A DNA stretch of 64,000 nucleotides from Parasphingorhabdus halotolerans (GTDB taxonomy: Bacteria > Pseudomonadota > Alphaproteobacteria > Sphingomonadales > Sphingomonadaceae). The stretch is from assembly GCF_012516475.1 (NCBI RefSeq), contig NZ_CP051217.1, forward strand, positions 2,480,001 through 2,544,000, read 5' to 3'. Made by a program: the position numbers and the translations under genes. Position 1 is the stretch's first letter, and each line of letters starts with the position of its first letter. The notes below the pieces were generated by a model. It was not told the DNA's origin, ran no database searches, and was given only the letters and a program-made list of their open reading frames with translations. This document shows positions 10,865 through 41,200 of the stretch, piece by piece.

Positions 10865-13800
10865 TGAAAATCCCGAGACTTTGGCAGGATGCGAACATTG
10901 CGCGGATGGCCATGCCGGGTATATTGGGATGGCAGTGTAACTGGAGGGTATTTCACCGGCGTTTCCGCTGTGCCCGCTTGCTCACGTTCCTGTTGCCGAT
11001 CTTCCTTGCGATAAATCGGGCGTTTCACTTCATCAGCATGCATCATTGGGACCGGCGTTTGTCCCAGCGCAGTGATCTCATCCAGCATTTGCGTGCAATC
11101 CTCAACCCGGCTGACCATGAGATGCACAACGCCTTCGACGCTGCGTTGAACTTCACCCGTAGCCAGCATCAGCCGCGCAGCCATAACCGGACGGCGCATT
11201 TTTTCGAACCGGCTGGCCCATAGCAGCAGATTGGAGACACCGGTTTCATCCTCCAGCGTGATGAAGACCGCATTGCCCTTGCCGGGGCGTTGGCGGATCA
11301 GGACAACGCCGGCGACCTGCGCCCGTGATCCATTTTTGGCTCGCGCTATTTCTGCACAACTAAGCACGCCTAGCGAACGAAACCGCTCGCGCAGAAATTC
11401 CATCGGATGGCCTTTGAGCGATAATCTAACGCTTTGATAATCGGCCACAACATGCTCCCCCTTGGTCATCGCTGGCAGACGCGCATCTTCTTCCTCGGCA
11501 AGCTCTTTTGCCTGGGCGGCTTCGAAGAGGGGTAGTGTATTGACCGGCGTGCGGCGAACTTCCCAGAGCGCTTTGCGCCGGTCCAGTCCCAGCGAACGGC
11601 AAGCATCGGCATCGGCGAGCAGACGCAATGCACGGGCCGGCAGATTAGCTTTATGGGCGAGTTGTTCGATGGTTCTGAAAGGGCGCGCGGTGATAATTTT
11701 CTCGGCCCACTCCTCGCGGAAGCTGTCAATTTGACGGAAGCCGATCCGGAGAGCAACTTCTCCTCTCCCCTTCAGGGGAGAGACCGGGAGAGGGGGAGTC
11801 GGAGAAGCTGGCGCACTGCCCCCCTCCCAACCCTCCCCCTGAAGGGGAGAGGGCTTTCAACCTCAATCCCGTTATCCCACGCGCTATAATTCACATCGAC
11901 TTCTCGCACTTCCACCTCATGTTCACGCGCATCGCGGACAAGCTGCGCAGGGGCATAAAAACCCATTGGTTGCGAGTTAAGCAAGGCCGCTGCAAACACC
12001 GCTGGATAATGGCATTTGATCCAGCTGGAAATATAAACCAGTATCGCAAAGCTCTGCGCATGGCTTTCGGGAAAACCATAGCTGCCGAACCCCTCGATCT
12101 GCTTGTAGCAGCGCTCGGCAAATTCGCGCTCATAACCGCGCGCCACCATGCCTTCGATCATCTTCGCCTGGAAATGATGGATAGTGCCCACGTTCCTGAA
12201 AGTCGCCATTGCCCGCCGCAATTTATTGGCATCGCTGGCGGAGAAATCTGCCGCGACAATGGCGAGTTTCATTGCCTGTTCCTGAAACAGGGGCACGCCG
12301 CAGGTGCGGCCCAGCACGGTTTTTAACTCATCAGGATCATGTGGCGGGTTGGGTTTGGGATAGACCGTCTTTTCGATGCCGGAGCGCCGCCGCAGATAGG
12401 GGTGGACCATATCGCCCTCAATCGGCCCGGGCCGGACAATCGCGACCTGAATCACCAGATCATAAAATTCGCGCGGCTTCAGGCGCGGCAACATGTTAAT
12501 CTGCGCGCGGCTTTCGACCTGAAACACACCGATGCTGTCGCCCTTGCAGAGCATGTCATAGGTGACCGGGTCTTCGGTCGGGACGTTCTGGAGTGCCCAC
12601 TGCTGTTCTCCTTCCGGCCGTACCCCGATGCTCTCCATCAGATCAAACGCCTTGCGGATGCAGGTCAGCATACCGAGCGCCAATATGTCGACCTTCATCA
12701 GGCCGAGCGCGTCGATATCGTCCTTGTCCCACTCGATAAACGTGCGGTCTTTCATCGCTGCATTGTGGATCGGCACGGTTTCATCGAGCCGGTCTTGCGT
12801 CAGCACGAAGCCGCCGACATGCTGGGACAGGTGGCGGGGGAATTGCAATATCTGCCGCACCAGATCACCAACACGTTTGATCTCGGGGCTTTCGGGGTCA
12901 AGACCGGTTTCGGCAAAGCGATTATCCGGGGCGCTGCTCGAATAGCTGCCCCAGACGGTACTCGAGAGGCGGCTGGTAATATCTTCCGACAGGCCGAGCG
13001 CCTTGCCAACTTCGCGGATCGCGCTACGCGAACGATAATGGACGACAGTGGCGGCTATGCCTGCGCGATGGCGACCATAGCGCTCATATATATACTGGAT
13101 CACCTCTTCGCGTCGTTCATGTTCGAAGTCGACGTCAATGTCTGGCGGCTCCTTGCGCTCCTCGGAGATAAACCGCGAGAAAAGCAGGTCGTGCTTCATC
13201 GGATCAACCGAGGTGATGTGCAGCAAATAGCAGACCGCACTATTGGCTGCGCTGCCTCGACCCTGACATAATATCCCCTGATCGCGCGCCCATTTGACAA
13301 TGTCATGGACGGTCAGGAAATAGGGCGCATAATCCAGTTTCTCGATCAGCCGCAATTCTTCCTCGACTTTGGACCGCAGTCGTTCCGGGATGATCGTACC
13401 ATGTTTTTCATGGGCCGCAGACCAGGCGAGATGTTCGAGCCAATCCTGCGGCGTCCAGCCTTTCGGTACAGGCTCATCGGGATAATGGTAGCTGAGTTCA
13501 TCGAGGGTGAAGTCGATCAATCCAAGCAGCTTCTGCGTCTCGGCAATCGCCTCGGGATAATCCTTGAACAATCGCGCGATTTCTTCCGGTGGTTTGAGAT
13601 AGCGCTCGGCATTGGCAGCAAGCAGGTGACCTGCTTTGTCGATCGTGGTTTTCTGAGCAATGCAGGTGAGAATATCGTGCAGCGGGCGTTGCTCGGGGCG
13701 GTATAGAGCGGATCATTGGTGGCGAGCATGGGAATGCCGAGATGATCGGCCTGGCGGGCGAGCTGGACTAGGTGCCGTTTGTCCGGGCCCGATCGCGGCA

Positions 13801-14416
13801 TGGTTGCAGCAAGCCAGATATGGGAGGTGCAGGATTTGAGCGCCGCTATAAGCCCCTCCCCTTCAGGGGAGGGGTTGGGGTGGGGGTTGTCCTCACACAC
13901 CAAACTCAGAAGTTGGCATCGAGCCAACTCCTTCATACCCCACCCCTTCCCCCTCCCCTGAAGGGGAGGGGCTAATATTATCAAAGCCCAATCCTCCGAG
14001 CACCATTCCAGCAGGTCAGCGGCAAATAAGTGGCAATCACCTTTCTCGGCGCGCAGGTTCCCGGTCGAGAGCATCCGCGTCAGTCGCCCCCAGCCGCGCC
14101 GGTTTAGCGGATAGACAATGATATCTGGTGTCTCGTCGGCAAAGATCAGACGCGAGCCGACGATCAACTTGAGATCCGGCAGTTTGAGATCCGGCAGGGC
14201 GACCCCTTCCTCCTCCGCATCCTCCCGCGCTCTGCGCAGGGCAACATGCGCGCGTACGACGCCCGCAACGCTGTTGCGGTCGGCGATACCGATGCCTGTC
14301 ATGCCCAGTATCATTGCCTGGCTCACCATGGCGGCGGGGGAGGATGCACCGCGCAGGAAGCTGTAATGGGTGGAGGCGGCGAGTTCGGCGAAGGGAGGAG
14401 GGGTGATGACACTCAT
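10861..14416 (-). CDS. dnaE2: Error-prone DNA polymerase DnaE2/ImuC (reading frame broken in this sequence)
   Basis: About 1185 codons read across three frames. The PHP domain starts at [19 protein letters not shown], the polymerase catalytic acids are in [15 protein letters not shown], and the C-terminal OB domain is in [20 protein letters not shown]. It works with ImuA and ImuB in SOS translesion synthesis. Two palindromic elements interrupt the coding sequence: one in the PHP domain (13853-13971), read through in frame, and one near codon 860 (11761-11853). The frame is lost at 13694, where restoring one C gives the expected [12 protein letters not shown], and again inside the second element, also repaired by one base. 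Without the inserts the length is close to the family norm. Either sequence errors or a decaying gene. Confidence 0.88.
11761..11853. repeat. Double palindromic element inside dnaE2 (3' copy)
   Basis: CTCTCCCCTTCAGGGGAGAG and CCCTCCCCCTGAAGGGGAGAGG flank a spacer of about 45 bases. On the dnaE2 strand the element is translated as [12 protein letters not shown], and later [12 protein letters not shown] in the frame that rejoins DnaE2. A one-base shift is needed within it; the six-C run at 11819-11824 is a likely place. Confidence 0.85.
13853..13971. repeat. Double palindromic element inside dnaE2 (5' copy)
   Basis: CCCCTCCCCTTCAGGGG with GTTGGGGTGGGGG on the left is mirrored by TACCCCACCCC and CCCTCCCCTGAAGGGG on the right. 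The whole 119-base unit is read through in the DnaE2 frame as [12 protein letters not shown] ... [12 protein letters not shown], with no stop codon. It lies within the N-terminal PHP domain. Confidence 0.9.
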
Positions 14417-14428
14417 TTATCAGACACT

Positions 14429-14495
14429 CGCTCATTCTGAGCTTGTTGAAGGACCATCGCAAAAAGATGCTTCGACAGGCTCAGCACGAACGGAA
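14429..14495. repeat. Inverted repeat between imuB and dnaE2
   Basis: CATTCTGAGCTTGTTGAAGG on the left and CTTCGACAGGCTCAGCACGA on the right form an imperfect hairpin. It belongs to the same family as 8276-8340. It fills the short gap of the imuB-dnaE2 operon and may reduce read-through or stabilise the upstream message. Confidence 0.7.
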
Positions 14496-14513
14496 TTGGT
14501 GCCGCGCTCGTGT

Positions 14514-16078
14514 TCACGCAAATAACCCATGAACATACCAATCCGGATTGGTATGTTCTGCGCCATAAAGACCGTGGCGGAACAGCCAGTAGCGTCGTCC
14601 TTTGACATCCTCGACCCGGTAATAATCGCGGGTGAGGCCGCCTTTCCCCGTTTCATGACCATCTCCGCGCTGCCACCATTCCGAGGCGATGCGCTCCGGC
14701 CCTTCATAGCGGATCACCTGATGAGTTTTGCGCCGCCAGGTAAAACGATAAGGCGGCCCGTCGGGGACCTCAGCGATCACCTGCACGCGCTGTGGTGGAT
14801 CGAACATATGTAGAGGGCGTAGAGGTGGGTTTTTAGATGAAGATGCTTTCCACGGCATCGGAGCAGGCGCACTCAACATTGGCAATGCAAGCAAGCCCTG
14901 TTCAGGTATATGACTATCGGCTGGTATGAACCTCTGCACGCGTTCCCGACCAAGTCTTGTGCTAAGCTGGCTGACCAGAGCAAGCTCATCACCCTGACGA
15001 TCCTCGCCGCCTTCAAGCTTCAGTTGCTGCGGTGCCAGCGGCTCGGCTGCCACAATAAAAAGCCGGATTAGATCATAGCCAAAGCCAGGATTAAGTTCAT
15101 CGTTGAGTGCATCAATCCGCTCGCGCAGCAGCCGTTTGAACAGGGCATTGTCCCGGGTTGGTGCTCCGGTTTCAACGCCCAATCGCGCGACATCACCGTC
15201 ACAGCGAAACAGCATCATGCGGACCATTCGCGCGCCTTCCCCGCGTTCGTTTAAACGCTCGGCGGCTTCGGCAAACAGCTCCGACAGGCATATGAGCGCA
15301 GCATCAATATGGGCGAGAGGTTCGGCAAACCGGCGTTCGGTCACAACATTGCCAAGGCTGCGAACCGGATCAATCGGGCGGTCTTCGATGCCCAGCAACC
15401 GGTCGAGACGCAAGGTCAGTTCCATCCCGAAGCGCGCCGCCAGCCCTGCACGTGGCCGCTCTGCCAGATCACCTATCTTGTAAAGCCCGGCACGTTCCAG
15501 CGCCTGATGGGTTTTGCTATCCATGGCCAAAGCGGAAACAGGAAGCTGGGCTTCTGCGCCTTCTTTGAGACCGTGCCGCGCCAGCGCCAGCGCGGCATCG
15601 GGCGTGCCTGCCAGCGCCCAATGCACTGAATAACCTGCATTATCGAGCTGATCTTCGGCATCCTGCGCGAGCGCTTCTTCAGAGGCATAAAAATGTGTCG
15701 CACCGGTTATATCGAGGATCAGGCTATTGGGCGGATCGACCGCGACCATCGGCGTGTAGCGCTCACACGCTTCTGCCAGACGCCCGAGCAGGCGCGCATC
15801 ACCCAGCGGATCATAAGCAAAAACCAGCAAGTCCGGCACCCGCGCCCGCGCGTCCGCCAGATTCATGCCGGGTCCAAGACCCAGCGATAATGCCTGATGG
15901 TCTGCAGCAGCAATGACAACGGCCCCCGGACCTTCTCGGTCAGCGTAAAAGGCGCTTCATGCTGCCCGTGTGCCTTGATCAACCGCTCGCATGGCAGATG
16001 GGGGAGGAATAATGCCAAGGTCCGGCGTGTCTTCCGACTGCTGTTCGTGGCCAATGTCTCCAAAGATTCTATGTTCAC
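14514..16078 (-). CDS. imuB: Y-family polymerase-like protein ImuB (reading frame broken in this sequence)
   Basis: About 521 codons in two frames. The N terminus RRTLALFLPHLPCERL is the usual ImuB start, then the Y-family palm (ARVPDLLVFAYDPLGD, DITGATHFY) and the ImuB C-terminal signature DYYRVEDVKGRRYWLFRHG ending WYVHGLFA. ImuB lacks polymerase activity and links ImuC to the beta clamp. The frame breaks at the five-C run 15923-15927 (G run on the coding strand): adding one base gives TEKVRGAVVIAAADHQALSL, the expected continuation. As written, translation from 16078 stops after 71 residues and the rest opens only from ATG 15866. It overlaps imuA by about 120 bases in another frame. Confidence 0.87.
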
Positions 16079-16874
16079 GATTCCACTCCAGTCGGGCGCT
16101 CAGCCCATAGAGCCCGCTGCGATGGCGCAGCAGGGTGATATCAAAAGCGGGATGCCCCGAAGCATTGGCTTCCAGCGGAATGGACGGTGCCGCGCTAACC
16201 TGCCAGCGGCTAAACGCAGACGTGGGCAAGGGGTTGTCCGGATCAGAACCGGATCGCAGCAGCAGGGTCGGGACACCCGATTTCTGAGCCGACAACGACA
16301 GTCTCCGCGTTGCCGTCAGGTCCAGTCCCTTGGGTTTCTTGCCCGCCAGTTCCACAATGACCGCGCCCATGGCGGAAGAGCGCACCCCGTCTGCCGCTGC
16401 CCGCAGCGCCGCGATGCTATCGGGCGCAGCGACATGGATAATGCTGGCAGGATCAATTCCCAATTCGGCAAGACCCGGTGGGTAAAGTTTGCCTTGCCGC
16501 CGCGCTTCCCCGCTTTGGGTAATCCACAGGACCGGCTTGCTGTCGTCCCGGCACCGCTCCGCGAGCAGCAAAGCCATGGCCGCTGCGCTGGTGGCATCCG
16601 CTTTTTCGGCTGCATGCAGTTCATGCAACGCTCCGCGCGGCAAGCCATCTGCCGAGGCATTGCCGCGTAACGCGGCATCGATCCTGTCTATGCCAAAGGT
16701 GAAGTGGGATGGCGCACCACTCTCGCCTGCTGTCTTTACGCCAGACGCAGCCAATATCTTCGCGAGCCGCACCCGCAAGGCAGAAGATTTTGCTGACACC
16801 TCTTTGGGTACAGCAACAGGGTTAATGGGTGAGGCGTCGAAAGGCCTGCCCGAATCCGAATCGATATTGTTCAT
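15957..16874 (-). CDS. imuA: SOS mutagenesis protein ImuA
   Basis: 305 residues, RecA-like/SulA-like protein of the mutasome. The conserved block is FGIDRIDAALRG, then GLPRGALHELHAAEKADATS in place of a Walker A loop, PVLWITQSGEARRQGKLYPP and the later RLSLSAQKSGVPTLLLRSG. It starts the imuA-imuB-dnaE2 operon. The start ATG 16874 lies inside a LexA box, so transcription may begin at or just next to the start codon, or translation may begin further in (inference). The long tail after LEWNREHRIFGDIG overlaps the start of imuB. The frame is intact, unlike the next two genes. Confidence 0.9.
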   Translation of the reverse strand: MNNIDSDSGRPFDASPINPVAVPKEVSAKSSALRVRLAKILAASGVKTAGESGAPSHFTFGIDRIDAALRGNASADGLPRGALHELHAAEKADATSAAAMALLLAERCRDDSKPVLWITQSGEARRQGKLYPPGLAELGIDPASIIHVAAPDSIAALRAAADGVRSSAMGAVIVELAGKKPKGLDLTATRRLSLSAQKSGVPTLLLRSGSDPDNPLPTSAFSRWQVSAAPSIPLEANASGHPAFDITLLRHRSGLYGLSARLEWNREHRIFGDIGHEQQSEDTPDLGIIPPPSAMRAVDQGTRAA

Positions 16875-16883
16875 GGTTTGTTC
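16869..16883 (-). promoter_or_regulatory. LexA operator (SOS box) of imuA-imuB-dnaE2
   Basis: GTTC-ATGGTTT-GTTC is a perfect match to the alphaproteobacterial LexA box GTTC-N7-GTTC (GAAC-N7-GAAC on the coding strand). It overlaps the imuA start codon, since CAT at 16872-16874 is the reverse of ATG. The imuABC cassette is known to be LexA-controlled in this class. Confidence 0.85.
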
Positions 16884-17019
16884 TAAAATATAGAAAGAAC
16901 AGATTTGGTCAAGCGGACTCGTGCATAACTATGATCATTTCAGATAATCGCCAGCCATCGCATGGCGCTTGACTGAACCCTCAGCCTGACCGACATTGTT
17001 GCCAAATGGGAGAGAATCG

Positions 17020-17811
17020 ATGAAATCTGCGCTGCTGAGAATATCCGCTTTTTGCCTCGCGACTACCGCCTTCGGACCCCTGCCGGCATTGGCCAACCAT
17101 CATGAAGAAGCCGGCGCTGCGACCATTGATATAGCGATGACCAAGGCAGCTCTTGCCGCTTCCGAAAATCGTTCCGATGAAGACAAGGCCCGTGATGAAT
17201 CCCGAAAACCGGCTGAAGTGCTTGCCTTCATCGGGTTGAAAACTGGTGACACGGTGCTCGATCTGATTTCTTCCGGCGGCTGGTATAGCGTCGCTGCAGC
17301 CATAGCCACCGGCGCTAACGGCAAGGTTTATGCACAAAATCCGGCCGCTGCTCTGCAACTGCGCGATGGCGCTTATGAAAAAGAAATTGCCGCGCGGCTG
17401 GAGGCAAACAAACTACCGCAAATCGAGCGACTCAATAGTGAGATTGCAGACCTCGGTGTGCCTGATGGCAGCATAGACGTCGCGATCACTGCGCTGAATT
17501 TTCATGATGTGTATAACAGCTTCGGCGCAGAGGCTGCGACCGGAATGCTCGCGGCGGTGAAGGCCAAGCTCAAACCGGGCGGTGTATTTGGCGTGATCGA
17601 CCATGTTGGCGACCCTGATGGCGATAACACGGCCACTCACCGGATCGATCCTGACTTGGCCGTAGCAGCTGCGTCAGCCGCCGGCTTCATGGTCGAGCGC
17701 AATGATGAACTGTTGGAGGGAACCGGCGATGAGCATAGCAAAAATGTGTTTGATCCCGCCGTGCGCGGCAAGACCGACCGGTTTATATTAAAGCTGACGA
17801 AGCCGGAATAA
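17020..17811 (+). CDS. Exported methyltransferase-fold protein
   Basis: 263 residues. A Sec signal peptide (residues 1-26, ending PLPALA) precedes a SAM-methyltransferase-like fold: LKTGDTVLDLISSGGWYS in the motif I place, AAAIATGANGKVYAQNP, DVAITALNFHDVYN and LKPGGVFGVIDH. This matches the predicted exported methyltransferases grouped in COG4798. Motif I lacks the usual G-x-G-x-G loop. ATG 17020 follows GGGAGAG at good spacing. SAM is not expected in the periplasm, so the true role is unclear. It is divergent from imuA. Confidence 0.72.
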   Translation: MKSALLRISAFCLATTAFGPLPALANHHEEAGAATIDIAMTKAALAASENRSDEDKARDESRKPAEVLAFIGLKTGDTVLDLISSGGWYSVAAAIATGANGKVYAQNPAAALQLRDGAYEKEIAARLEANKLPQIERLNSEIADLGVPDGSIDVAITALNFHDVYNSFGAEAATGMLAAVKAKLKPGGVFGVIDHVGDPDGDNTATHRIDPDLAVAAASAAGFMVERNDELLEGTGDEHSKNVFDPAVRGKTDRFILKLTKPE

Positions 17812-17905
17812 ACACAGCCGAAAGAGCTTCGATTTTCCTTCTGGCATGACTTGATAAGCGCTGCCCGAAGCGCCAGATGATCTGTGTCTATCAAAGGGTG
17901 ACATA

Positions 17906-18682
17906 GTGATCGAAAAAATCCGTGCGTTGATTGAGTCTTCACGTTTTCAAAATGCGATCATGGTGGTGATCGTGCTCAATGCGATCATCATCGGAATGGA
18001 AACCTCGCCGGGGTTAATGGCACGCTATGGCGAGATTCTCGTTGCGCTTGACCGGATCGCCATCGTGATTTTCATTGTCGAAATTGCCCTGAAACTGATT
18101 GTTTACCGGCTCAGCTTTTTCAAAAACGGCTGGAATATTTTTGACTTTGTGATTGTTGGCGCGGCTCTGCTGCCGACAGGTGGCAGCTTGTCCGTCCTGC
18201 GCGCCTTGCGGATATTGCGGGCGCTTCGCCTGATCTCCGCTATGCCAAAAATGCGCAAAGTGGTGCAGGGCCTGTTCGCCGCAATCCCATCGATGGGGAC
18301 AGTGATCGTATTGCTTGGACTGGTCTTCTATATTGCCGCCGTCATGGCGACGAAGATGTTCGGTAGCGAATTTCCCCAATGGTTCGGCACGATCGGCGCG
18401 TCGCTTTATTCGCTGTTCCAGATCATGACATTAGAGAGCTGGTCGATGGGCATCGTCCGCCCGATCATGGAAGTCTATTCATGGGCCTGGGTGTTTTTTG
18501 TGCCATTTGTTCTGGTGACTTCTTTCGTCGTGCTCAACCTGTTCATCGCGATCATTGTCAACGCGATGCATGAAGAGACGGATGAAGAACAGGCAGCGCA
18601 GCGGGACGAGATATTGCATGAGATTAGAGGATTGCGGCGGGAAGTGGCGGACATGCGTGAGGGGCAAGTGGAACGAAAATGA
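17906..18682 (+). CDS. Voltage-gated sodium channel, bacterial (NaChBac/NavAb type)
   Basis: 258 residues with six membrane segments. The S4 sensor has arginines at 99, 102, 105 and 108 (LRALRILRALRLI). The pore has the filter TLESWS at residues 175-180, as in NavAb/NavSp-type sodium channels, followed by MGIVRPIMEVY and S6 (FVVLNLFIAIIVNAM). The C-terminal tail, rich in E, Q and R (DEEQAAQRDEILHEIRGLRRE), looks like the four-helix coiled coil that tetramerises these channels. GTG 17906 is the start. Such channels are tied to motility and pH or sodium responses in alkaliphiles and marine bacteria; here no such gene is nearby. Confidence 0.92.
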   Translation: MIEKIRALIESSRFQNAIMVVIVLNAIIIGMETSPGLMARYGEILVALDRIAIVIFIVEIALKLIVYRLSFFKNGWNIFDFVIVGAALLPTGGSLSVLRALRILRALRLISAMPKMRKVVQGLFAAIPSMGTVIVLLGLVFYIAAVMATKMFGSEFPQWFGTIGASLYSLFQIMTLESWSMGIVRPIMEVYSWAWVFFVPFVLVTSFVVLNLFIAIIVNAMHEETDEEQAAQRDEILHEIRGLRREVADMREGQVERK

Positions 18683-18795
18683 AACAGCTGTCGCATTGAA
18701 ACAGGGACGGCGCAGCACTCTTTGTCCTGTCCATGCGTCCATTCGCCTCAATCCCCTTAACAATCACGGCCATCTTTTTTTAGCCAGCAGGTTTC

Positions 18796-18816
18796 GGCGG
18801 AAGGCCGCCATTTTTT
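18796..18816 (+). terminator. Possible rho-independent terminator after the sodium channel gene
   Basis: GGCGG-AAGG-CCGCC followed by ATTTTTT forms a small stem with a T tract. It lies only 21 bases before the next start codon, close to its AGGAG RBS, so it may instead act in the 5' leader of that gene. Confidence 0.4.
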
Positions 18817-18836
18817 GTAATCTCTAGGAGTAAAAT

Positions 18837-19355
18837 ATGAAGAATTTCCTGACCCTCATGACCGGTGTCGCATTACTGGCCGCGACCCCGGCTCTGGCAC
18901 AAGATGCCGCTCCGGCTGTCGAAGCCCAGGTTGGAATGAAGGTTATTGGTCCCAATGGCGGTGAGGTAGGATCGGTAGATTCGGTGAGCGACGGTGTCGT
19001 CGTGGTCGATACCGGCAAGAATAAAGCCGCGCTTGCGACCGATGCTTTTGCCGAGGCAGACAATGGCTTGTCCATCATGATGACGAAGGTTGATCTGGAT
19101 ACAGCCGTCGAAAAGGCTGCTGCCGATGCCAGAGCCCAATTGCTCGCCAGCCTCACTCCTGGCACGGAAGTGAAAACCGTTACCGGTGCCGCGGTGATTG
19201 GCACCATTAAGGAAAGCGATGCAGAATATGTGACCGTCGAACATAATGGCCTGCCAGTGAAGCTGCCGGTGGCAGCATTCATGGCGAAGGCGGATGGTGT
19301 TTCCATCACGATGACCGAAGACCAGTTCAAAGCGGCGCTAGCGGGCACGCAATAA
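18837..19355 (+). CDS. Exported PRC-barrel-like protein
   Basis: 172 residues. Signal peptide MKNFLTLMTGVALLAATPALA. The mature part holds two related strands-rich repeats: VGMKVIGPNGGEVGSVDSVS (residues about 32-51) and GTEVKTVTGAAVIGTIKESD (about 107-126), each followed by VVVVDTG or YVTVEHNG. This resembles a duplicated PRC-barrel/YlmC-type motif seen in small periplasmic proteins of sphingomonads. Function unknown. AGGAG sits at the right distance before ATG. It is convergent with ribH. Confidence 0.65.
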   Translation: MKNFLTLMTGVALLAATPALAQDAAPAVEAQVGMKVIGPNGGEVGSVDSVSDGVVVVDTGKNKAALATDAFAEADNGLSIMMTKVDLDTAVEKAAADARAQLLASLTPGTEVKTVTGAAVIGTIKESDAEYVTVEHNGLPVKLPVAAFMAKADGVSITMTEDQFKAALAGTQ

Positions 19356-19397
19356 AATAGTTTCCATGACGGCGGCGGGCAAACAGGTCCGCTGCTG

Positions 19398-19820
19398 CTA
19401 GCTGGAAAATTTCAGCCCAAGTTCATACATCGCAATGGCCGCAACCGCTGCTTCGCCGCCCTTGTTTTTTTCCGTCTTGTCGGCACGCGCCAAAGCCTGT
19501 GCTTCGTCTTCGACCGTAATGATACCATTGCCGATTGCGGCCCCGTCCATGGTTAGCGCCATGATTCCGCGCGCGCTTTCGCCAGCGACAATTTCAAAAT
19601 GATAGGTTTCGCCGCGGATAACCACGCCGATGGCGACATAGCCATCATATTGGTCGCTCTCCATCGCCAGCGAAATCGCGCCGGGAATTTCGAGCGCCCC
19701 GGGAACAGTGAGGGTCTCATGCTCGTGGCCGGCAGCCTCGAGCGCAGAGCGCGCGCCATCGAGGAGCATATCGTTGAGATGATCATAAAACCGTGCTTCG
19801 ACGATCAGGAATTTTGCCAT
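19398..19820 (-). CDS. ribH: 6,7-dimethyl-8-ribityllumazine synthase
   Basis: 140 residues, typical length. It joins 5-amino-6-ribitylaminouracil with 3,4-dihydroxy-2-butanone 4-phosphate to form lumazine, the penultimate step of riboflavin synthesis. The signatures are [55 protein letters not shown] (with the substrate-binding R-G-E-T-x-H) and [14 protein letters not shown]. It follows ribB with a one-base TAATG overlap, so the two are translationally coupled. The order ribB-ribH gives the enzyme making the four-carbon unit followed by its user. Confidence 0.95.
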
Positions 19821-21136
19821 TATGCCGACTCCAGCTCTATGGTTTCTTTAGACGCATCACCGGTTGGAATTTCACGCTGTCCCACAATGCGCAGACCATA
19901 AGCATCCAGCCCGACCAGATCATGGCTGGTGTTGGAAAGTAGTTCCATATCGCTGACACCCAGCTCGGTCAGGATCTGCGCGCCGACACCATAATCGCGG
20001 AGCTGGTCCATATGCGGTCCCTTTTCGCCAGCCAGTTTGCGAACCTGGTTGGACAGAAATTGCGGGCTCGACTGGGTAATGAACACAATCAGTCCCGCAC
20101 CTTCCTCCCCGATGATTTTCATGCATTCGGACAACGTCTTGCCGCTGGGACCGGTCTGGCCAAATATGTCGTTGAAGATGGTCATCGCATGCATGCGCAC
20201 CAAGGTCGGTCTTTCGGGGTTGACATGACCTTTCTGTAGCACGATCTGCTCGGTCTCTGTTGCCTTGTTGTAATAGGTGATAGCTTTCCACTCGCCGCCC
20301 CAGTCACTGGTGAAGTTCGCTTCTGCGCGGCGGGCAGCGAGATGATCGTTACGCAGGCGATAGGCAATTAAATCCCGGATCGTGCCGATTTTCATGCCGT
20401 GGTGCTGGGCAAACTCAATGAGATCATCAAGCCGCGCCATCTCTCCATCGTCCTTCATGATCTCGCAGATCACGCCGGAAGGATTAAGTCCCGCCAGCCG
20501 CGACACATCAACCGCCGCTTCGGTATGGCCCGCGCGCACCAGCACGCCGCCGTTGCGCGCTTGCAACGGGAAGACATGGCCCGGTGTAACAATCTCCTCC
20601 TTGCTCTTGGTGCCGTCAATCGCCACCGCGACAGTACGCGCCCGGTCGGCGGCGGAAATGCCGGTGGTCACCCCGTCCCGCGCTTCTATGGATATGGTGA
20701 AGGCGGTTTCATGCGCAGTACGGTTATTCTGGCTCATCATATCGAGACCAAGTTCATCGACGCGCGCTTTTTCCAGAGCCAGGCAAATCAGCCCGCGGCC
20801 ATATTTGGCCATGAAGTTAATCGCATCGGGCGTTGCCATTTGGCCCGGAATGATCAGATCGCCTTCATTCTCACGGTCTTCGTCATCGACGAGAATATAC
20901 ATTCTGCCGTTGCGTGCTTCGTTTATAATCTCTTCCGCCGTTGCCATCACGTCGCTACCGCCGCGCGCGAGATATTTCTCCAGCTTGCCAAGCGTTTCAG
21001 CGGTCGGATTCCAGTCATCCTCACCAAGACGGCGCAGGCTGTTAGCGTGTAGGCCCGCCGCGCGAGCAAGGCCAGCGCGGGTTTCTTCACCGGATTCGAT
21101 CAGTTCGATCAGTTGCTCTATCAATATTTTGCTCAT
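19820..21136 (-). CDS. ribB: Dihydroxybutanone phosphate synthase with N-terminal helix-turn-helix and degenerate RibA domain
   Basis: 438 residues in three parts. Residues about 10-57 ([20 protein letters not shown], then [20 protein letters not shown]) look like a Cro/CI-type helix-turn-helix. From about 64 comes RibB, with its acidic metal/substrate motif [10 protein letters not shown] at 84-93 and THE-like [21 protein letters not shown]; it turns ribulose 5-phosphate into 3,4-dihydroxy-2-butanone 4-phosphate. From about 265 comes a GTP-cyclohydrolase-II-like domain whose zinc cysteines are missing ([15 protein letters not shown]), as in RibBX proteins, so it should not hydrolyse GTP. Palindromes upstream may be bound by the N-terminal domain (inference). 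Coupled to ribH. Confidence 0.9.
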
Positions 21137-21171
21137 GGAATCGCCTTTGCAATGTGATGTTGCAAAGCGTC

Positions 21172-21223: not shown

Positions 21224-21284
21224 GCAATATCGCTGTAGTTCGTCCTGTTTGCGCCTGTAAACTTCACGTTGTAGAGACTTGCTC

Positions 21285-22409: not shown

Positions 22410-22453
22410 TGCGACAAGTGACCCCCCGCAGTAATACGCGAAGAAGATAAGGC

Positions 22454-31193: not shown

Positions 31194-31202
31194 CGAAACA
31201 CT

Positions 31203-31287: not shown

Positions 31288-31292
31288 AGATA

Positions 31293-32594: not shown

Positions 32595-32714
32595 AAATCC
32601 ATATCTTGTGAACCTGTCCCCAAACTGTCCACAAGGGAGTGTGGATACGTCGGAATCGCATCTTGCTAGCGCGGTGTAAAAATTCTAGATGCCATGGCAG
32701 ATTAAGGAAGTTCC

Positions 32715-33377
32715 ATGTCCCACAACATCCGCATTGCGCCATCTATCCTGTCTGCTGATTTTGCGAGGCTTGGCGAAGAAGTGCGCGCCATTGATGAAGC
32801 GGGTTGTGACTGGGTTCATGTTGATGTGATGGACGGGCATTTTGTACCGAATATCACAATCGGCCCGGCGGTGGTAAAAGCGCTGCGACCGCACAGTGCA
32901 AAACCGTTTGACGTGCATTTGATGATTTCACCGGTCGATCAGTTTCTTGAGGATTTCGCTGACGCCGGCGCGGATATTATTTCTTTCCACCCTGAGGCAG
33001 GCGCGCATCCGCACCGCACCGTGCAGACAATCAAGTCGCTTGGAAAAATGGCAGGCTTGGTCTTAAACCCGGCGACACCGCTGAGCGCTTTGGATTATTT
33101 GATAGATGACCTCGACCTCATTCTCGTGATGAGCGTGAACCCGGGCTTTGGTGGGCAGAGCTTTATCGACACGCAATTGAGGAAAATCGAAGCGATCAGG
33201 AAACGTATTGACGAGACAGGCAAGGATATCCGGCTCGAAGCTGATGGGGGCATTGACTTGACCACCGCGCCAAAAGCAATTGCCGCCGGCGCGGATACAT
33301 TGGTCGCTGGCACCGCGACCTTCCGTGGCGGCCCGGAGCAATATGCCGCCAATATCAGCGGCCTGAGGGGTGAATGA
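32715..33377 (+). CDS. rpe: Ribulose-phosphate 3-epimerase
   Basis: 220 residues, standard length. IAPSILSADFARLGEEV begins the TIM barrel; the metal-binding HVDVMDGHFVPNITIGP, HLMISPVDQFLEDF, VMSVNPGFGGQSFID and LEADGGI are all present. It converts ribulose 5-phosphate and xylulose 5-phosphate in the pentose phosphate and other sugar pathways. The stop overlaps the heparinase gene by an ATGA, so coupled. Confidence 0.95.
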   Translation: MSHNIRIAPSILSADFARLGEEVRAIDEAGCDWVHVDVMDGHFVPNITIGPAVVKALRPHSAKPFDVHLMISPVDQFLEDFADAGADIISFHPEAGAHPHRTVQTIKSLGKMAGLVLNPATPLSALDYLIDDLDLILVMSVNPGFGGQSFIDTQLRKIEAIRKRIDETGKDIRLEADGGIDLTTAPKAIAAGADTLVAGTATFRGGPEQYAANISGLRGE

Positions 33378-35154
33378 GCGAGAGCGCACCGGATCACGAC
33401 GATTGGGATGAGGAAAGCCCGGATCGTTATAGCGGAGAGCATGAGGAAGCGCCGGACGGCCGCAGCCTGACCTTGCGCTCGGATGGCGATCGCGGGCAAT
33501 CACTCGCCGAGCAAGCGGCCATGCTCTACTACCGTCTGACGTGGCGGATGCCGATGCACAAGCTGCGTCTGTCGGGAAAATTGCCGTTGAGGCTGCTTGC
33601 GGTGCCGGTCGATCCTGTTGATGGCGACCGGGTGCAGGGTACCGCCGTGCGTGCGGGCTATTTTCTGTTTCGTGGCCTCAAAAAGAAACACGAGGGCATT
33701 GATTTTGCCGACCTCAAACTGCCGCCCGCTTTTGAGGATTATGTGCACCGCTTCCAGTGGCTGCGTGATCTTGATACCGCGGCGTCACGCGACCAGGCAG
33801 TACCGGTTGCCGAAAAGCTGATCGAACAATGGCTGGACGCGAACGGCGGAAAAATCCGTCAACCAGCATGGAGGCCCGATAATTGCGGTTGGCGGTTGCT
33901 GATCTGGGCCAGCCATGCGCCGCTTATTCTCTCGTCCAATGATCTGATCTACCGCTCCAAATTGCTCAACAATATCGCCCGCACCGCGCGGCATTTGGAC
34001 CGCACGGCAGACAAGGCAACCTCCAGCCTCGGACGGCTGGTGGCATGGAGCGGCGTTGTTGCGTCCTCATTATTGTTGCCGGAAGGGCGGGTGCGCCAGA
34101 TTGTTGGCGAGGCCGGTCTGCAAAAAGCGATGGGCGAGTTTTTCTTTGCCGATGGCGGTTCGGTGTCCCGTTCTCCGCTTAACCAGATGGATGCCGTCAT
34201 CCTGCTCTCGATGCTCAAGCAAGTCTATATCGCTCGCGGGAAGATGCTCCGGAATATCTGGAAGAAGCGCTGAACAAAGCGGTGCCGCCGCTCACCGGGC
34301 TCACCCATTTTGATGGCACGATGGGCAATTGGCAAGGCAGCGGCGCAACGGCGCGGGAACAGGTGGCACAGGTTATCGAAGCCAGTGGTGTGCGGGCGCG
34401 GCCTCTGCGCCAGGCACGGGACTGGGGCTATCAGCGCGTGTCGTCCGGGCGCTCGGTGCTCATTCTCGACGCAGCACCGCCACCAATTGCGCGCATGGCA
34501 GTCGCGGGTTGCGCTTCCACTTTGGCCTTTGAGTTTTCCAATGGCGACTGCCGGATCATCACCAATTGCGGCGGCGCAGGGTTGGTCGGTGCGACGATTC
34601 CTGCCAGTCTTGCGCGTGGACTTCGCACAACGGCGGCTCACAGCACCCTGTGCATTGATGATAGCAACAGCACCTCGATCCTGCCCGATGGCAAGCTGGG
34701 TCGCGGTGTCAATGAAGTGGAATTGTTCCGCCGCGATGTTGAAAATGCGACCCGGCTGGAGGCCAATCACGACGGCTACGCGCGGCGCTTTGGCCTCAAT
34801 CACAAGCGCCTGTTGCTGCTTCGCTCCGATGGTCTGGAGTTGCGCGGAGAGGACATGCTGATCCCCGATGGCCGCAAGCGCCGCCGCAAGAAGGATGATG
34901 TGCAATATGCACTGCGTTTCCATCTCGGACCGAATATCGAGAGCGATCTCATATCCGATGGCAAAGGCGTATTGCTGCGGCTGGAAGACGGCAATTTATG
35001 GCAATTCCGCTCGACCAGCAGCGCGATTATATTGGAAGAAAGTGTCTGGGTTGACGGCATGGGTATCCCCCACGAAGTCCGGCAAATGGTAATATCGGGA
35101 TCAGTGGGCAGCGGCGGCGGGGCGACCGGCTGGCTGCTCAAACATATGGGTTAA
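33374..35154 (+). CDS. Heparinase II/III family protein (reading frame broken in this sequence)
   Basis: About 593 codons in two frames. The first 300 residues hold the alpha/alpha toroid ([20 protein letters not shown] ... [18 protein letters not shown]). The second part has the beta-sandwich: [42 protein letters not shown]-like region and [15 protein letters not shown]. As written the frame ends at a TGA at 34271-34273. Restoring one G in the GGG run at 34238-34240 gives [19 protein letters not shown], which joins both parts smoothly. The family is common before purH in alphaproteobacteria; it may act on a polyuronide or cell-surface glycan. It overlaps rpe by ATGA. Confidence 0.83.
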
Positions 35155-35165
35155 ACGGGGAATTT

Positions 35166-36758
35166 ATGACGGAAAATATTCAGGTAAAACGCGCGCTTTT
35201 GTCGGTATCGGACAAGACTGGTCTGGCCGAACTGGGCAAGCAACTGGCGGCCATGGGCGTTGCGCTGATCTCGACCGGCGGCACGGCGAAGGCGTTGCGC
35301 GATGCGGGGCTTGAGGTCGCGGACATCAGCGATGTCACGAACTTTCCCGAAATGATGGATGGCCGGGTAAAAACCCTGCATCCCAAGGTCCACGGCGGCC
35401 TGCTGGCACGGCGCGATGATGCGGGTCATGTCGCTTCGATGAAGGAGCATGATATTGCCGGAATCGATCTGGTGATCGTCAATCTCTATCCCTTTGCCCA
35501 GACCGTGGCCAAGGGTGCGGAACGCGACGAGATTATCGAAAACATCGATATTGGCGGGCCAAGCATGGTGCGGAGCGCGGCGAAAAATCACGATTTCGTA
35601 ACGATTGTAACTGATGCTGCCGATTACGATACATTACTTACTGAGCTCAAGGAACATGGCGGCGCGACCTCGCTGGCTTTTCGCAAAAACATGGCGGCCA
35701 AGGCTTTCGCTGCGACCGCGACCTACGACAGCATGATCGCGCAATGGTTTGGTTTTGCCGATCAGGGCAAGATGTTTCCGGACACATTGCCGCTGACGAT
35801 GAGCCGCCCGGTTGAATTACGCTATGGTGAAAACCCGCACCAGATGGCGGCACTGTACCTGCCAAATGGCCCTTCCGCTTCAGGCATTGCGCAAGCAAAG
35901 CAACTGCAGGGCAAGGCGCTGAGTTACAATAATTACAACGATGCGGATGCTGCGCTCGAACTGGTCAGCGAATTTCGTGATAGCCCGCCAACCGTGGTAA
36001 TCGTCAAGCACGCCAATCCGTGCGGCGTGGCAAGCGCGGATAATATTCTCGACGCCTATAAAGCGGCTCTGGCCTGCGACAGCGTGTCGGCTTTCGGCGG
36101 GATTATTGCCGTCAACCGGCCTCTCGATGGCGCGGCAGCCGAAGCGATGACCGGCATTTTCACAGAAGTCGTTTGCGCCCCCGACGCTGATGACGATGCC
36201 AAGGCGATTTTTGCGAAGAAAAAGAATTTGCGGCTGCTGCTAACAGGTGAACTGCCTGATCCGAAGCGTGGCGGCATGGCATTTAAATCCATCGCTGGTG
36301 GCTTCCTGCTCCAGTCCCGTGACAACGGGCATGTTTCTGACGATGATCTGAAATGCGTAACCAAACGCCAGCCGACAGAGCAGGAAATGGCCGATTGCCT
36401 GTTTGCCTGGACGGTCGCCAAGCACGTGAAATCAAACGCGATTGTTTACGCCAAAGACGGCGCGACAGCAGGCGTAGGCGCGGGCCAGATGAACCGGCTG
36501 GAATCCGCGCGCATCGCCGCCTGGAAAGCCAAGGATGCGGCAGAGAAAGCCGGTTGGAGCGAAACGCGCACCATTGGGTCTGCGGTGGCGTCTGATGCGT
36601 TCTTCCCGTTTGCCGATGGTTTGCTGGCGGCAGTTGAAGCAGGGGCAACGGCGGTTATTCAGCCCGGCGGATCTATCCGCGATGACGAGGTGATTGCGGC
36701 GGCGGATGAGGCTGGCTTAGCGATGCTGTTCACCGGTATGCGGCATTTCCGGCACTAG
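35166..36758 (+). CDS. purH: Bifunctional AICAR formyltransferase/IMP cyclohydrolase
   Basis: 530 residues, typical. The N-terminal IMP cyclohydrolase half has [31 protein letters not shown] and [18 protein letters not shown]. The C-terminal AICAR transformylase half has [41 protein letters not shown] (catalytic K-H) and [14 protein letters not shown]. It carries out the last two steps of purine synthesis to IMP. Eleven bases after the heparinase stop, so part of that operon. Confidence 0.96.
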
Positions 36759-36788
36759 AAAGCGGTGGGCATGTATATCCCGTCGCGA

Positions 36789-37154
36789 TTACCCGCTATA
36801 TAGATTCACGGAGATCAAAATCCCGCAAGCCAACCAAATCGCAACAATTGCGACGGTCGCATAAACACTGGTCGGTCGCTCTGATTGCGAGGATGCAGTT
36901 TCACGAAACTCCGCCATCAGCTGGTCCGGAATGAAACGCAGGGCCAGCCAGATACCTAGCGGTACGATTATGATGTCATCAAGATATCCGAATAGGGGAA
37001 TAAAATCGGGAATGAGGTCGATTGGGCTAAGTGCGTATGCTGCCGTTGCCCCTGCAACGATTTTTGCGATGAACGGGGTCCGTCCATCGCGGGCCGCAAT
37101 CCATATTGCGATTATGTCTCGCTTCAGGTTTTTCGTCCAAAGCTTGATATTCAC
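36789..37154 (-). CDS. YkvA-like DUF1232 membrane protein
   Basis: 121 residues. The DUF1232 core is TPFIAKIVAGATAAYALSPIDLIPDFIPLFGYLDD, with the typical LSPIDLIPDFIP motif, followed by DIIIVPLGIWLALRF. A C-terminal membrane segment (VAIVAIWLACGILISVN) is present. Function unknown. It lies downstream of the DUF3035 lipoprotein gene in the same direction and is convergent with purH. Confidence 0.85.
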   Translation of the reverse strand: MNIKLWTKNLKRDIIAIWIAARDGRTPFIAKIVAGATAAYALSPIDLIPDFIPLFGYLDDIIIVPLGIWLALRFIPDQLMAEFRETASSQSERPTSVYATVAIVAIWLACGILISVNLYSG

Positions 37155-37166
37155 TCCGGCCCAGCC

Positions 37167-37574
37167 TTACTCAGGCGTGGCGGCCTGGGCGTTTTGTCCG
37201 TCGCCTTCGGGAGCAGCGATAATATCGCGGGTTACACCGCCTTTATTGACGGTGAACGTTCCGGCATCGCCCACGGAGGAGCGGATACCCGCGTCCGAGT
37301 TACCAGCTTGACCAACGATTGCTGATTCGGTGACGCTGCGCGCCTGTGGTCCGCCAAACATGGCTTCCAGCGTCTGCTGCTGCGAACTGGCAACTTGCGG
37401 ACGAGGCTCACCGGGACGTGGCGGGGTCAGCGCAAAATCAGGAGGAATAACCAGCGGCGCCTGCCGCGAAACAGCAAATTCATCGGGCCGGTCACGATTC
37501 AAAAACCCGCCGGAACCGCACGCAGAGAGCGCGATCAGTGAAACAAGGCTGATGCCGATGATGGATTTACGCAT
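37167..37574 (-). CDS. DUF3035 lipoprotein (BamF-like)
   Basis: About 135 residues. Lipoprotein signal MRKSIIGISLVSLIALSAC with the LSAC lipobox. The conserved DUF3035 patch follows: RPDEFAVSRQAPLVIPPDFA and LTPPRPGEPRPQ. The family is found in alphaproteobacteria next to lspA and has been linked to the outer membrane assembly (BAM) machine as BamF. The C-terminal half is low in pattern. Part of the minus-strand cluster ribF-ileS-lspA-DUF3035. Confidence 0.82.
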   Translation of the reverse strand: MRKSIIGISLVSLIALSACGSGGFLNRDRPDEFAVSRQAPLVIPPDFALTPPRPGEPRPQVASSQQQTLEAMFGGPQARSVTESAIVGQAGNSDAGIRSSVGDAGTFTVNKGGVTRDIIAAPEGDGQNAQAATPE

Positions 37575-37638
37575 AATCATATTCCTAAAAAATCTCTAAA
37601 CAGCCTGATAGCGCGCTCTTGCCACAGGTCAACTTTCA

Positions 37639-38154
37639 TCAAGCTGAACCGTCCGCATTTTCCGTTTTCTCTTCCCGGATCAGCAAGGCCCTGGCCAGCA
37701 GGATGACGACCCCGATGGAAATAGCCGCATCGGCAACGTTAAAAATGAGAAATGGCCGGAAATCGCCAAAATGCAGGTCGGCAAAGTCAGCGACGTAGCC
37801 CATACGCGCGCGGTCCAATATATTGCCCATCGCCCCGCCAAGCACCATCGCCAGCGCGATAATATCCCACTTCGCTTTTTCGCGGTTCATCCAGACAAAC
37901 ACCGCGATGCCGATAAGGCCGGTCAATGCAACCAGTGCCCAGCGCTGGAAATCGCTGGATGCGGTCAGAAAACCCATGGAAACGCCGTAATTTTCCGCCC
38001 AGGTGAGATTGAAAAAGGGCAGCAGCTCAATCTGGCCTTTGCCTTTGAGATCGAGCGGATGCATCACCAGATATTTGGTGAACTGGTCAGCGAAGAAAAT
38101 CAGGAAGGCGATAATCAGGCCCGTGCGGCGGTATTTTTTGATTGGGTCGGTCAT
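37639..38154 (-). CDS. lspA: Lipoprotein signal peptidase
   Basis: About 171 residues with four membrane segments. The catalytic aspartates lie in GNILDRARMGYVADF and FNVADAAISIGV, the LspA signature. LIIAFLIFFADQFTKYL is the first helix. It cuts prolipoproteins before the diacylated cysteine; this window alone encodes several lipoproteins. ATG 38154 is chosen; an upstream ATG at 38160 adds two residues. A mobile palindrome lies between it and ileS. Confidence 0.95.
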   Translation of the reverse strand: MTDPIKKYRRTGLIIAFLIFFADQFTKYLVMHPLDLKGKGQIELLPFFNLTWAENYGVSMGFLTASSDFQRWALVALTGLIGIAVFVWMNREKAKWDIIALAMVLGGAMGNILDRARMGYVADFADLHFGDFRPFLIFNVADAAISIGVVILLARALLIREEKTENADGSA

Positions 38155-38176
38155 AAGCAATTCACCATTTTACTGT

Positions 38177-38258
38177 CGTCATTGCGAGGAGCGAAGCGAC
38201 GCGGCAATCCAGAGCGGTTAGCGACGCTCTGGATTGCTTCGCTGCGCTCGCAATGACG
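38177..38258. repeat. Large inverted repeat between ileS and lspA
   Basis: CGTCATTGCGAG ... CAATCCAGAGCG pairs with CGCTCTGGATTG ... CTCGCAATGACG across a small loop. It belongs to the 'CGTCATTGCGAG' palindromes spread through many alpha- and other proteobacterial genomes. It would form a strong hairpin in the ileS-lspA transcript. Confidence 0.85.
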
Positions 38259-38277
38259 AGTGTGCGGCGATTATCTC

Positions 38278-41200
38278 TCATGCCACCACCTTCTGGCAAC
38301 GTCCGCACAACGCGCCATCTTCTTCCACTTCGGGGAGGAGACGCCAACAGCGGCCGCATTTGTGGTTGTTGGTTTTGGTGACGGTGACGTTGCCTGATAA
38401 AGCTTTTTGATCATCATCCAATTTGCCTAGTTGGCTTAAATTGACATCAGATACGATCAGAACCTCTGACCAATCAATACCGTCAGTCCGATCAAAGTTA
38501 CCAGCATCCAAATCCAAAATTACATCTGCTTCCAAACTAGACTTGATTTCCTTCTCACGTCGAAGGGGCTCTATATAAGAATAGACCATTGCACGCCCCA
38601 ACCGGACCGCTCTCCACCTGTCCGCAAGAATGTCATCTTTCCAACCAGCATCAACCTCCGGCCACTCCTTCAAATGAATGCTATCATCCTCATCCGGAAA
38701 ACGGCTCTGCCAGATTTCTTCGGCAGTAAACACCAGCACCGGGGCGATATAGCGGGTCAGTGCGTGGAACAATATGTCCATCACCGTCCGGTACGCCATC
38801 CGCTTGGGATCATCGGGCGCATCGCAATACAAACAGTCTTTGCGGATATCGAAGAAGAAGGCGCTTAAATCTTCCTGCGCAAAAGCGTTCAGCACCCGCA
38901 TATAGGGGCCGAAAGCAAAATCATTGACATGCTGTTTCAGCTCCGCATCCACCTCGGCGAGGCGGTGGAGGATATAGCGTTCCAGCTCGGGCATATCGGC
39001 AACCGCAACGCGCTCTGCCTCGGTGAAGTCGCCCAGACCGCCAAGCATATAGCGGAAGGTGTTGCGCAGCTTGCGATAGCTATCCGAAACGCCCTTGAGG
39101 ATTTCGTCGCCTATCCGGTGATCCTCGGTGTAATCAACGCTCGCTGCCCAAAGCCGCAGGATATCCGCGCCCTGCACGTCGATCACCGTTTTGGGATCGA
39201 GTGTATTGCCCAGCGACTTGGACATTTTCTTGCCGGTTTTATCGAGCGTCATCCCGTGGGTCAGCACCGCCTTGTAAGGCGCGTGGCCCCTTGTGCCGCA
39301 ACTCTCCAAAAGACTCGACTGGAACCAGCCGCGATGTTGGTCACTGCCTTCGAGATAGAGATCGGCGGGTGTTTGCTGATCGGGCCATTTGCCGCTTTCC
39401 AGCACAAAGGCGTGGGTGCAGCCACTGTCAAACCAGACGTCGAGAATATCGGTTATGACCTCAAAGTCATCGAGCGCATATTTATCGCCGAGGAAATCCT
39501 GATGATCGGCATTGAACCAGGCATCAGCCCCACCCGCCTTAAACGCTGCAATAATCCGCTCGTTTACCGCCGGATCGTTGAGATATTCGCCGGTCTTGCG
39601 GTCGACAAAAAGCGCAATCGGCACGCCCCAAGCGCGCTGGCGGGAGAGCACCCAGTCCGGGCGGCCTTCAACCATCGATTCCAGCCGCCGCCGTCCGCGT
39701 TCGGGCACAAAGCGCACTTTGTTGCGGATTTCGTCCAGCGCAACTTCGCGGAGGGTTCCGTTGATGCCTTCAGCATGGCCGATTTCAAGCCCCTCCCCTT
39801 CAGGGGAGGGGTTGGGGTGGGGGAGTTCCTTCGCGAGTGCGCTGTTCGGGTCGTCCCCACCCCGGCCCCTCCCCTGTAGGGGAGGGGGGAGTCCATCGGC
39901 ACAAACCATTGCGGTGTGCAGCGGTAAATAATCTTCGCTTTCGAGCGCCAGCTATGCGGATAGCTATGGGTGAAATCGGCGCTGGCCGACAACAGGGCGC
40001 CGGCTTCGCGCAAATCCGAACAGATCGGGCCATCCGGGCCGTTGAAATTCTTGTTGATCACCCCGCCGGCGCGTTCATCGCTACGCGGCAGCCATTCCCA
40101 GTCCTCGCGATAGACGCCGTCGGCATCGACCGCGAACACCGGATTGATGCCATTGGCCTTGCACAGATCGAAATCATCCTCGCCATGGTCAGGCGACATA
40201 TGGACCAGACCCGTACCCGCATCGGTGGTGACAAAGTGCGAGCCGTCGAGAAACGGGCGCGGTTTGGTGTAGAATTCACTGTCCGGGAAATTGTCGGCCA
40301 TGGGATGTTTGGCTGTGGCTCCGGCAAGTTGGGAGCCTTTGCCTGACCAATGAATTTGCTCAGATTGAGCAAGCCCGTAAAGCATCCGAGTAGATTTCAA
40401 TTCTTCAAATAGATCAGCAGCGATCAAAATTCTTTTACTTTGGCTGGGGTCCATCTGCGTTGGAGGCGAACCACGTTCAGTGGTTGGGATTAATTTTGGA
40501 GTGAAGTGATCGACCAAAACATAATCAACATCCGCCCCATAAGCGAGTGCCTGATTGACCGGAATTGTCCAAGGAGTCGTCGTCCAGATCACCGCATGCG
40601 CACCGACCAGTTCCGGCGCATTTGGCGCCTCGACAATCTCGAACGCCACATCAATCTGCGTCGAGGTGATATCCTCATATTCCACCTCGGCCTCGGCCAG
40701 CGCGGTTTTCTCCACCGGCGACCACATCACCGGTTTCGCCCCGCGATACAACTGTCCCGCTTCTGCAAACTTCAAGAGCTCTGCGACAATCGCGGCTTCG
40801 GCGTCATAGTCCATCGTGAGATAGGGCTTGTCCCACTCGGCAAGTACGCCGAGCCGCTTGAATTCCTCGCGCTGGACATTGACCCATTTGTCCGCATAGT
40901 CGCGGCATTCTGCGCGAAATTCGCTGGCCGGGACCTCGTCCTTGTTGCGCTTTTTCTTGCGATATTGCTCCTCGATCTTCCATTCGATCGGCAGTCCGTG
41001 GCAATCCCAGCCCGGCACAAACGGCGCGTCCTTGCCCAGCAAAGTTTGCGATCTTACGACGATATCTTTAAGTGTCTTGTTAAGACTATGCCCTATGTGA
41101 ATGTTTCCATTGGCATAAGGTGGCCCGTCATGGAAAATGAACTTATCCCGCCCTGCGCGGCACTTTCGCAACTTTTCATAAAGCCCGATTGTCTGCCAGC

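Follow-up and report, generated by a model that had tools for sequence, protein, structure and literature searches.

The stretch of DNA analyzed here (hereafter the window) comprises the 64,000 nucleotides at bases 2480001-2544000 of one 3,269,179-base contig of Parasphingorhabdus halotolerans (genome G000). Three palindromic elements lie within protein-coding sequence of the window, one in ileS and two in dnaE2, and they belong to a repeated family whose ends are shared with palindromes that flank small genes for a DUF559 nuclease. The elements and their host genes are as follows.

10861..14416, minus strand: host gene dnaE2, for an error-prone DNA polymerase; three frames in the assembly
11755..11860, minus strand: element copy in the 3' part of dnaE2, a CCTCTCCCC variant with its ends in the opposite order; the frame switches inside it
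13850..13975, minus strand: element copy within the 5' portion of dnaE2, with arms 13853-13874 and 13950-13971; open in frame throughout
38278..41306, minus strand: host gene ileS; two frames in the assembly (39564-41306 and 38278-39909)
39787..39892, minus strand: element copy in ileS, arms 39790-39811 and 39866-39887; the ileS frame switches inside it

The three double palindromes of the preliminary description, and their placement in ileS and twice in dnaE2, are confirmed by a pattern search (up to three mismatches), which recovers six arm matches as the pairs 11763-11782 / 11832-11851, 13854-13873 / 13951-13970, and 39791-39810 / 39867-39886, compared with 0 in 100 shuffles. Each end of an element is built of a CCCCTCCCCT..AGGGGAGGGG-type hairpin and, after it, a G-rich tail (GGGGTGGGG), and the inverted ends of about 35-40 bp enclose a short centre. 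No RNA family reaches its gathering score anywhere in the window; six weak matches, distributed over four loci, score far lower and were taken as chance.

With up to two mismatches, the arm pattern occurs at 15 places in the whole genome and the reversed pattern at none. With weaker copies added by a DNA search, the family groups into about 11 loci (one of them, at 1657850, with only one strong arm). Seven of these lie inside genes, all for nucleic-acid enzymes, and are given here by contig position, followed by the other four.

620813: in glyS
892018: in ligA
902708: in truB
1693134: in valS
2491755 and 2493850: in dnaE2
2519787: in ileS
Four other loci: behind atpD; close to a cytosine methylase gene; in the interval separating a SufBD-type gene from a DUF559 gene; close to a lacI-type gene

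The elements thus resemble miniature inverted-repeat transposable elements (MITEs), in that they have terminal inverted repeats, lack a gene, and occur in multiple copies. Among 32 genomes of the genus (this one and 31 other species), the family is repeated in 30, including G000, and the reversed-pattern control gives 0 in all 32, in agreement with the earlier proposal that a palindromic family is spreading here. An unselected sample, consisting of all listed arm matches of five congeners (G006, G010, G013, G040, and G041) with their flanks, contains 39 arm groups. Five of these lie in identified genes (dnaE2 twice, glyS, valS, and uvrA), and the remainder are mostly intergenic, often a few bases behind the end of an open reading frame (ORF). 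Excluded from the in-gene count were an ORF joining DUF559 and PrmC (L335) and a lumazine synthase ORF in which the arm precedes the domain (L327); the remaining ORFs that span arm groups comprise seven that matched no family and three short, unsearched ones. The in-gene share is 7/11 in G000 vs. 5/39 in the five congeners, and all 12 in-gene hosts in the six genomes, a small sample, act on nucleic acids.

DUF559 genes are common in the genus: PF04480 exceeds its cut-off in 29 of the 32 genomes (67 rows). We analyzed 30 DUF559 loci (the best of each of the 29 genomes plus one more; two genes are partial) for pyrimidine-rich palindromes with a stem of at least 8 and a loop of at most 8 within 260-300 bp of the gene. 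Palindromes are present on both sides at 27/30 loci and on at least one side at 28/30, compared with 1/60 of the outer-end windows. The three loci that do not have both comprise L370, with a palindrome on one side only, and L374 and L375, with a different palindrome type. In random 310-base blocks from the window and from stretches of G010 and G016, a similar criterion is satisfied on both sides in 0/600 and on either side in 12/600. At the class level, DUF559 is found in 64 of 190 genomes of Alphaproteobacteria; among 29 further DUF559 loci, 26 have a palindrome on at least one side (distal windows 0/56), whereas around ileS, examined in 54 other genomes, they are present on both sides in 0/54 and on either side in 2/54. 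Two arms spaced about 400 bp apart enclose a DUF559 gene in G006, and the Sphingomonas parapaucimobilis plasmid NZ_CP155753.1 carries one, located between sufB and sufC, that is bracketed by perfect CCCCTCCCCT..AGGGGAGGGG palindromes.

The DUF559 proteins have the nuclease motif D...E.DG..H conserved in an alignment of 54 sequences, and the nearest solved chain, 3hrl, is endonuclease-like; searches of phage and defense libraries gave weak endonuclease-like matches only. Two side observations concern these genes. In L374 (G044) and L375 (G002) the flanking palindromes are of the GGCCCCTCCACCACGC... type, like the family-G inserts of DnaE2 (palindrome families were named A to K by their translated motifs, A being that of the window). 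In L335 (G006) and at G017:C4:121558, the DUF559 frame continues through the palindrome into a PrmC-type methyltransferase, giving 442 residues.

The ends of the in-gene elements and of the DUF559 loci are closely similar. The end of the ileS element matches the palindrome to the left of the DUF559 gene at 2285166 of G000 over 38/39 bases, and that of the 5' dnaE2 element over 35/36. In G021, both termini of the glyS insert have counterparts in the termini of the DUF559 element upstream of dnaG (30/34 and 30/33 bases matching), and in L366 and L372 the inverted ends around the DUF559 gene, with their matching tails, are exact over 38-40 bp. As for other MITEs, there is therefore a gene-bearing relative with the same ends, the gene of which would be the mover. 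Near the G000 gene (L080 ~4000-4120; G000:C1 ~2285500), the right palindromic end is interrupted by an inverted repeat of the AGTTTCAGGT type, a nested insertion.

Upstream of dnaG (assigned by Pfam), the 29 loci comprise six with the DUF559 element, eight with a short spacer only, six with family D palindromes, and nine with another neighbour or a contig end. The DUF559 unit is present or absent at this site, which, like the protein loops described below, can be taken by different families. The upstream gene at the empty sites is one that we take to resemble GatB/YqeY. The palindromes upstream of dnaG in six congeners (L409, L410, L411, L413, L417, and L418) are of the CGTC type, at a site where others have a DUF559 element or nothing.

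From these data, the in-gene elements are probably gene-less, MITE-like members of a mobile palindromic family whose gene-bearing form encodes the DUF559 nuclease. In the gene-bearing members, ends of this kind surround a small DUF559 gene (Vsr-like, of the PD-(D/E)XK type). The enzyme would nick or cut the hairpin ends or the target, by which copying of the element would begin, and short gene-less copies would use the enzyme in trans. Copies inside genes would persist only if open and situated in a tolerant loop, and those that persist would be translated, presumably neutrally, as disordered loops (in IleS, ValS, GlyS, LigA, TruB, DnaE2, and UvrA). For a broader proposal the chances appear about even: that a large class of palindromic repeats (the CCCTCTCCC, CCCTCCCCC, and CCCCTCCCC types) is moved by DUF559 (Vsr-like) nucleases as elements of ~0.5 kb, in which a PD-(D/E)XK nuclease and hairpin ends replace a known transposase, and that gene-less copies enter essential replication, repair, and translation genes, adding protein loops. 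At ~110-140 residues and bracketed by the same palindromes genus-wide and often class-wide, the nuclease is a concrete candidate mover that can be tested at the bench.

Several points weigh against a DUF559-driven family. Movement of the elements and cutting of DNA are deduced rather than observed. At the DUF559 gene at 2285166, the best-matching palindrome is the outer of two arms on the left side, and the right flank keeps only 15 matching bases before another inverted repeat begins. No target duplication is evident at the dnaG site, where the flanks are too diverged for one to be recognized with confidence. Across the class, only 12 of the 29 further DUF559 loci have palindromes on both sides, and among six plasmid records (of 45 with a match) two have them on both sides, two on one, and two on neither; one of the negative plasmids, labelled E. 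coli, does carry CCCTCACCCCAACCCTCTCCC repeats on one flank, but these are imperfect and are not counted by the test. No connection to DUF559 emerged here for palindrome families B to F. The same neighbouring genes (ligA, dnaG, and suf) reappear at many DUF559 loci, a pattern that fits simple inheritance; homing at preferred sites would fit it too, and Vsr-like homing endonucleases exist. Finally, arms occur without any DUF559 match in three genomes (G008 and G043, both incomplete, and G011, rated complete).

Recurrent neighbours and arms without a DUF559 gene would also be expected if the palindromes spread by other means, or were fixed terminators or insulators, with DUF559 a passenger or a small gene that tolerates or needs them; the many intergenic copies just behind ORF ends in the five congeners are likewise placed as terminators would be. 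We consider such a passenger role unlikely, if far from implausible, given that inverted ends with matching tails, exact in L366 and L372, enclose the gene, that the same ends occur on gene-less copies inside genes, and that ends and gene are present or absent as a unit at the dnaG site.

Movement by a transposase of another kind, in particular a repetitive extragenic palindromic (REP)-associated tyrosine transposase (RAYT; Y1_Tnp), as proposed for the GTAG class of REPs (Di Nocera et al., 2013; PMC3733652), is improbable. Across the 32 genomes, arm counts correlate with DUF559 counts (rho 0.49) and with Y1 counts (rho 0.48) almost equally, and therefore copy numbers do not discriminate between the two movers. 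The distribution of Y1 itself is less favorable to this alternative: matches occur in only 13/32 genomes, 17 genomes with arms have none, and they are absent from the palindrome-bearing G006, G010, G013, G040, and G041 (insertion sequence transposases of other folds were outside this search), while the match in G000 (G000:C1:2907759-2908099) is in pieces with a stop and is probably a decayed gene.

Copies that persist inside genes should be open, and here the assembly of G000 calls for comment. As assembled, only two of the seven in-gene copies stay in frame: that of truB, read as SPLPVRGGAGGGESSLQGAADDEPHPNPSPKGEGL between the two TruB domains, and that of 5' dnaE2, which is open within ORF 13517-14416 (minus strand) with no stop, as previously described. 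In ileS, valS, glyS, ligA, and 3' dnaE2, the frame switches inside the palindromic element. The clean in-frame ileS insert of the preliminary description is thereby not supported: the upstream half of ileS enters the element as SPLPYRGG, and the far-arm peptide is in frame only with the downstream half. The stated agreement of frame between the ileS and 5' dnaE2 copies stands for the far arm but fails for the near arms, which read as SPLPYRGG and APPLQGRG, respectively. Nor could a preferred frame be sustained as a general property, since all three arm frames occur in the genus (PLPF.GG, PPLQGRG, and PSLSREGEG readings). An orientation bias is not claimed; six of the seven in-gene copies in G000 have their two slightly different ends in the same order relative to the gene, and both orders occur in congeners (judged by eye).

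Base-calling errors at G/C-rich palindromes most likely account for the five frame breaks, because the same genes are in one frame at 134 of 135 congener loci, elements in place included (IleS 21/21, ValS 29/29, GlyS 29/29, LigA 28/29, and DnaE2 27/27), the sole exception being ligA of the draft genome G018. Ten rows of the GlyS search contain one stop at the upstream edge of the match; because the ORFs are long apart from it, this stop was taken to precede the start codon. Of the two frame changes in dnaE2, one (~13694-13703, minus strand), a shift of one base, lies away from any element. Elsewhere in the window, a heparinase II/III-type gene (33374-35154, plus strand) is split at ~34237 by a one-base shift with no element there; in G010 and G016 this gene is one frame of 595 residues. 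In G005, the glyS and dnaE2 palindromic inserts (L239 and L307) contain runs of N, which points to difficult sequencing.

That the breaks are real, and that the cell bypasses, frameshifts over, or tolerates them, is very improbable. The concentration of five switches inside elements, vs. two seen elsewhere in the window, would suit such a reading, but it has to be set against the intact congener loci, including those that bear elements, and against the runs in the broken arms, which are one base shorter than in the palindrome partner or the truB copy. Moreover, searches of G000 revealed no second copies of ileS, valS, glyS, or ligA, and these genes are essential in bacteria generally; the N runs in G005 likewise mark such inserts as hard to read. 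Base-calling error carries a practical warning, in that palindromes of this kind can make essential genes seem broken in assemblies.

Alignments of ValS, LigA, and GlyS (30 loci each), DnaE2 (28), and IleS (21) indicate how the same protein positions are occupied in relatives. The inserts of the window are absent or different in many of them, in line with the preliminary description. G017 and G021 both carry the window family at the identical IleS position and in frame (SPLPFRGGAGGG...HPNPSREREGL), other congeners have other sequences there, and in L068, from the genome of a different family, the segment is much shorter. The loops of these five proteins hold several unrelated palindrome families that vary by species. 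Twelve loops were tallied with search expressions of our own, which miss short or degraded inserts; in loop 1 of LigA (30 loci), for example, family E was assigned at six loci, D at five, A at two, B at two, and none at 15. Folding of 93 inserts gives a mean of -0.489 kcal/mol per base, vs. -0.321 in a control of 278 random segments drawn from these genes; 58% of the folded inserts fall below its first percentile. Loop filling by unrelated families, the copies in valS, glyS, ligA, and truB, and the DUF559-bearing form all go beyond what had been described for the window.

In the alignment with a solved IleRS (8c9e), the IleS insert falls in the interval bounded by residues 415 and 426. A structural model was built for the IleS of L130, which comes from an uncultured Sphingomonadaceae and has a family-B insert in the corresponding position (20 sequences, mean predicted local distance difference test score [pLDDT] 78). 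There, the loop lies between a strand and a helix, and residues 468-506 are modelled as coil with pLDDT under 50. The in-gene copies show a route by which elements add segments to essential proteins. Selection of the inserts for altering replication, repair, or translation enzymes is the least credible of the alternatives, and extremely so: all 12 in-gene copies are in genes for nucleic-acid enzymes (7/7 here and 5/5 in the five congeners), target kinds also found with other families by Di Nocera et al. (2013; PMC3733652), where mutator effects are proposed, but the loops are variable, being empty or filled by unrelated families in relatives, and the sole modelled insert is unstructured.

Palindromes within genes have precedents. 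Rickettsia palindromic elements, to which the preliminary description correctly pointed and which are matched by cases in other bacteria (Di Nocera et al., 2013; PMC3733652), are likewise in-frame palindromic repeats in coding sequence, comprise several families, and target TruB among other proteins. Here too, palindromes lie in frame in ORFs for conserved proteins (truB and 5' dnaE2 of G000, IleS of G017 and G021, and glyS, valS, uvrA, and dnaE2 of congeners). Going by their description, the Rickettsia elements differ in sequence as far as is known, and the present family occurs in a free-living host genus and has a nuclease-bearing form.

A close parallel is provided by intragenic REPs of the GTAG and CGTC superfamilies, small in-gene palindromes, often in inverted pairs, that are described in DnaE2, DNA ligase, UvrA, tRNA synthetases, and TruB, with tRNA synthetase and TruB inserts also in two sphingomonads (Di Nocera et al., 2013; PMC3733652). 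The recurrence of the same target kinds with unrelated families in several phyla raises the question of whether it reflects target choice or loop tolerance. Family A differs from REPs in having neither GTAG nor CGTC as a tag at the stem foot (the seven in-gene stems are bordered by AAG/CTT, TCA, or G-rich tails), in its longer hairpins and G-rich tails, and, with respect to GTAG REPs, in being linked to DUF559 rather than to a RAYT. The family D and F inserts of congeners, with CGTC beside the stem, may be CGTC REPs. In the account of REPs, inserts at the same site are given only for recB of two Xanthomonas (PMC3733652), whereas here loops are refilled genus-wide by unrelated families.

MITEs and enterobacterial repeat units are similar in being small mobile sequences with inverted ends that leave open frames in genes, but their sequences are different, and the abstract of the work describing them names no nuclease-bearing relative (Delihas, 2007; PMC2759123). 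As for the nuclease, VsrA, a DUF559 protein of Caulobacter, is reported as responsible for an SOS response in cells lacking a cytosine methylase, and therefore the DUF559 family can act on DNA in the cell (PMC12907096). VsrA has the same domain but is described as acting in mismatch repair (very short patch repair; VSP), and palindromes or mobility are unmentioned in that description (PMC12907096). No report that ties DUF559 to palindromic repeats was found in the searches made of the open-licence literature. Palindromes inside genes are thus already familiar, both in Rickettsia and, in the form of REPs, elsewhere among bacteria; what seems to be new here is the nuclease partner of the family.

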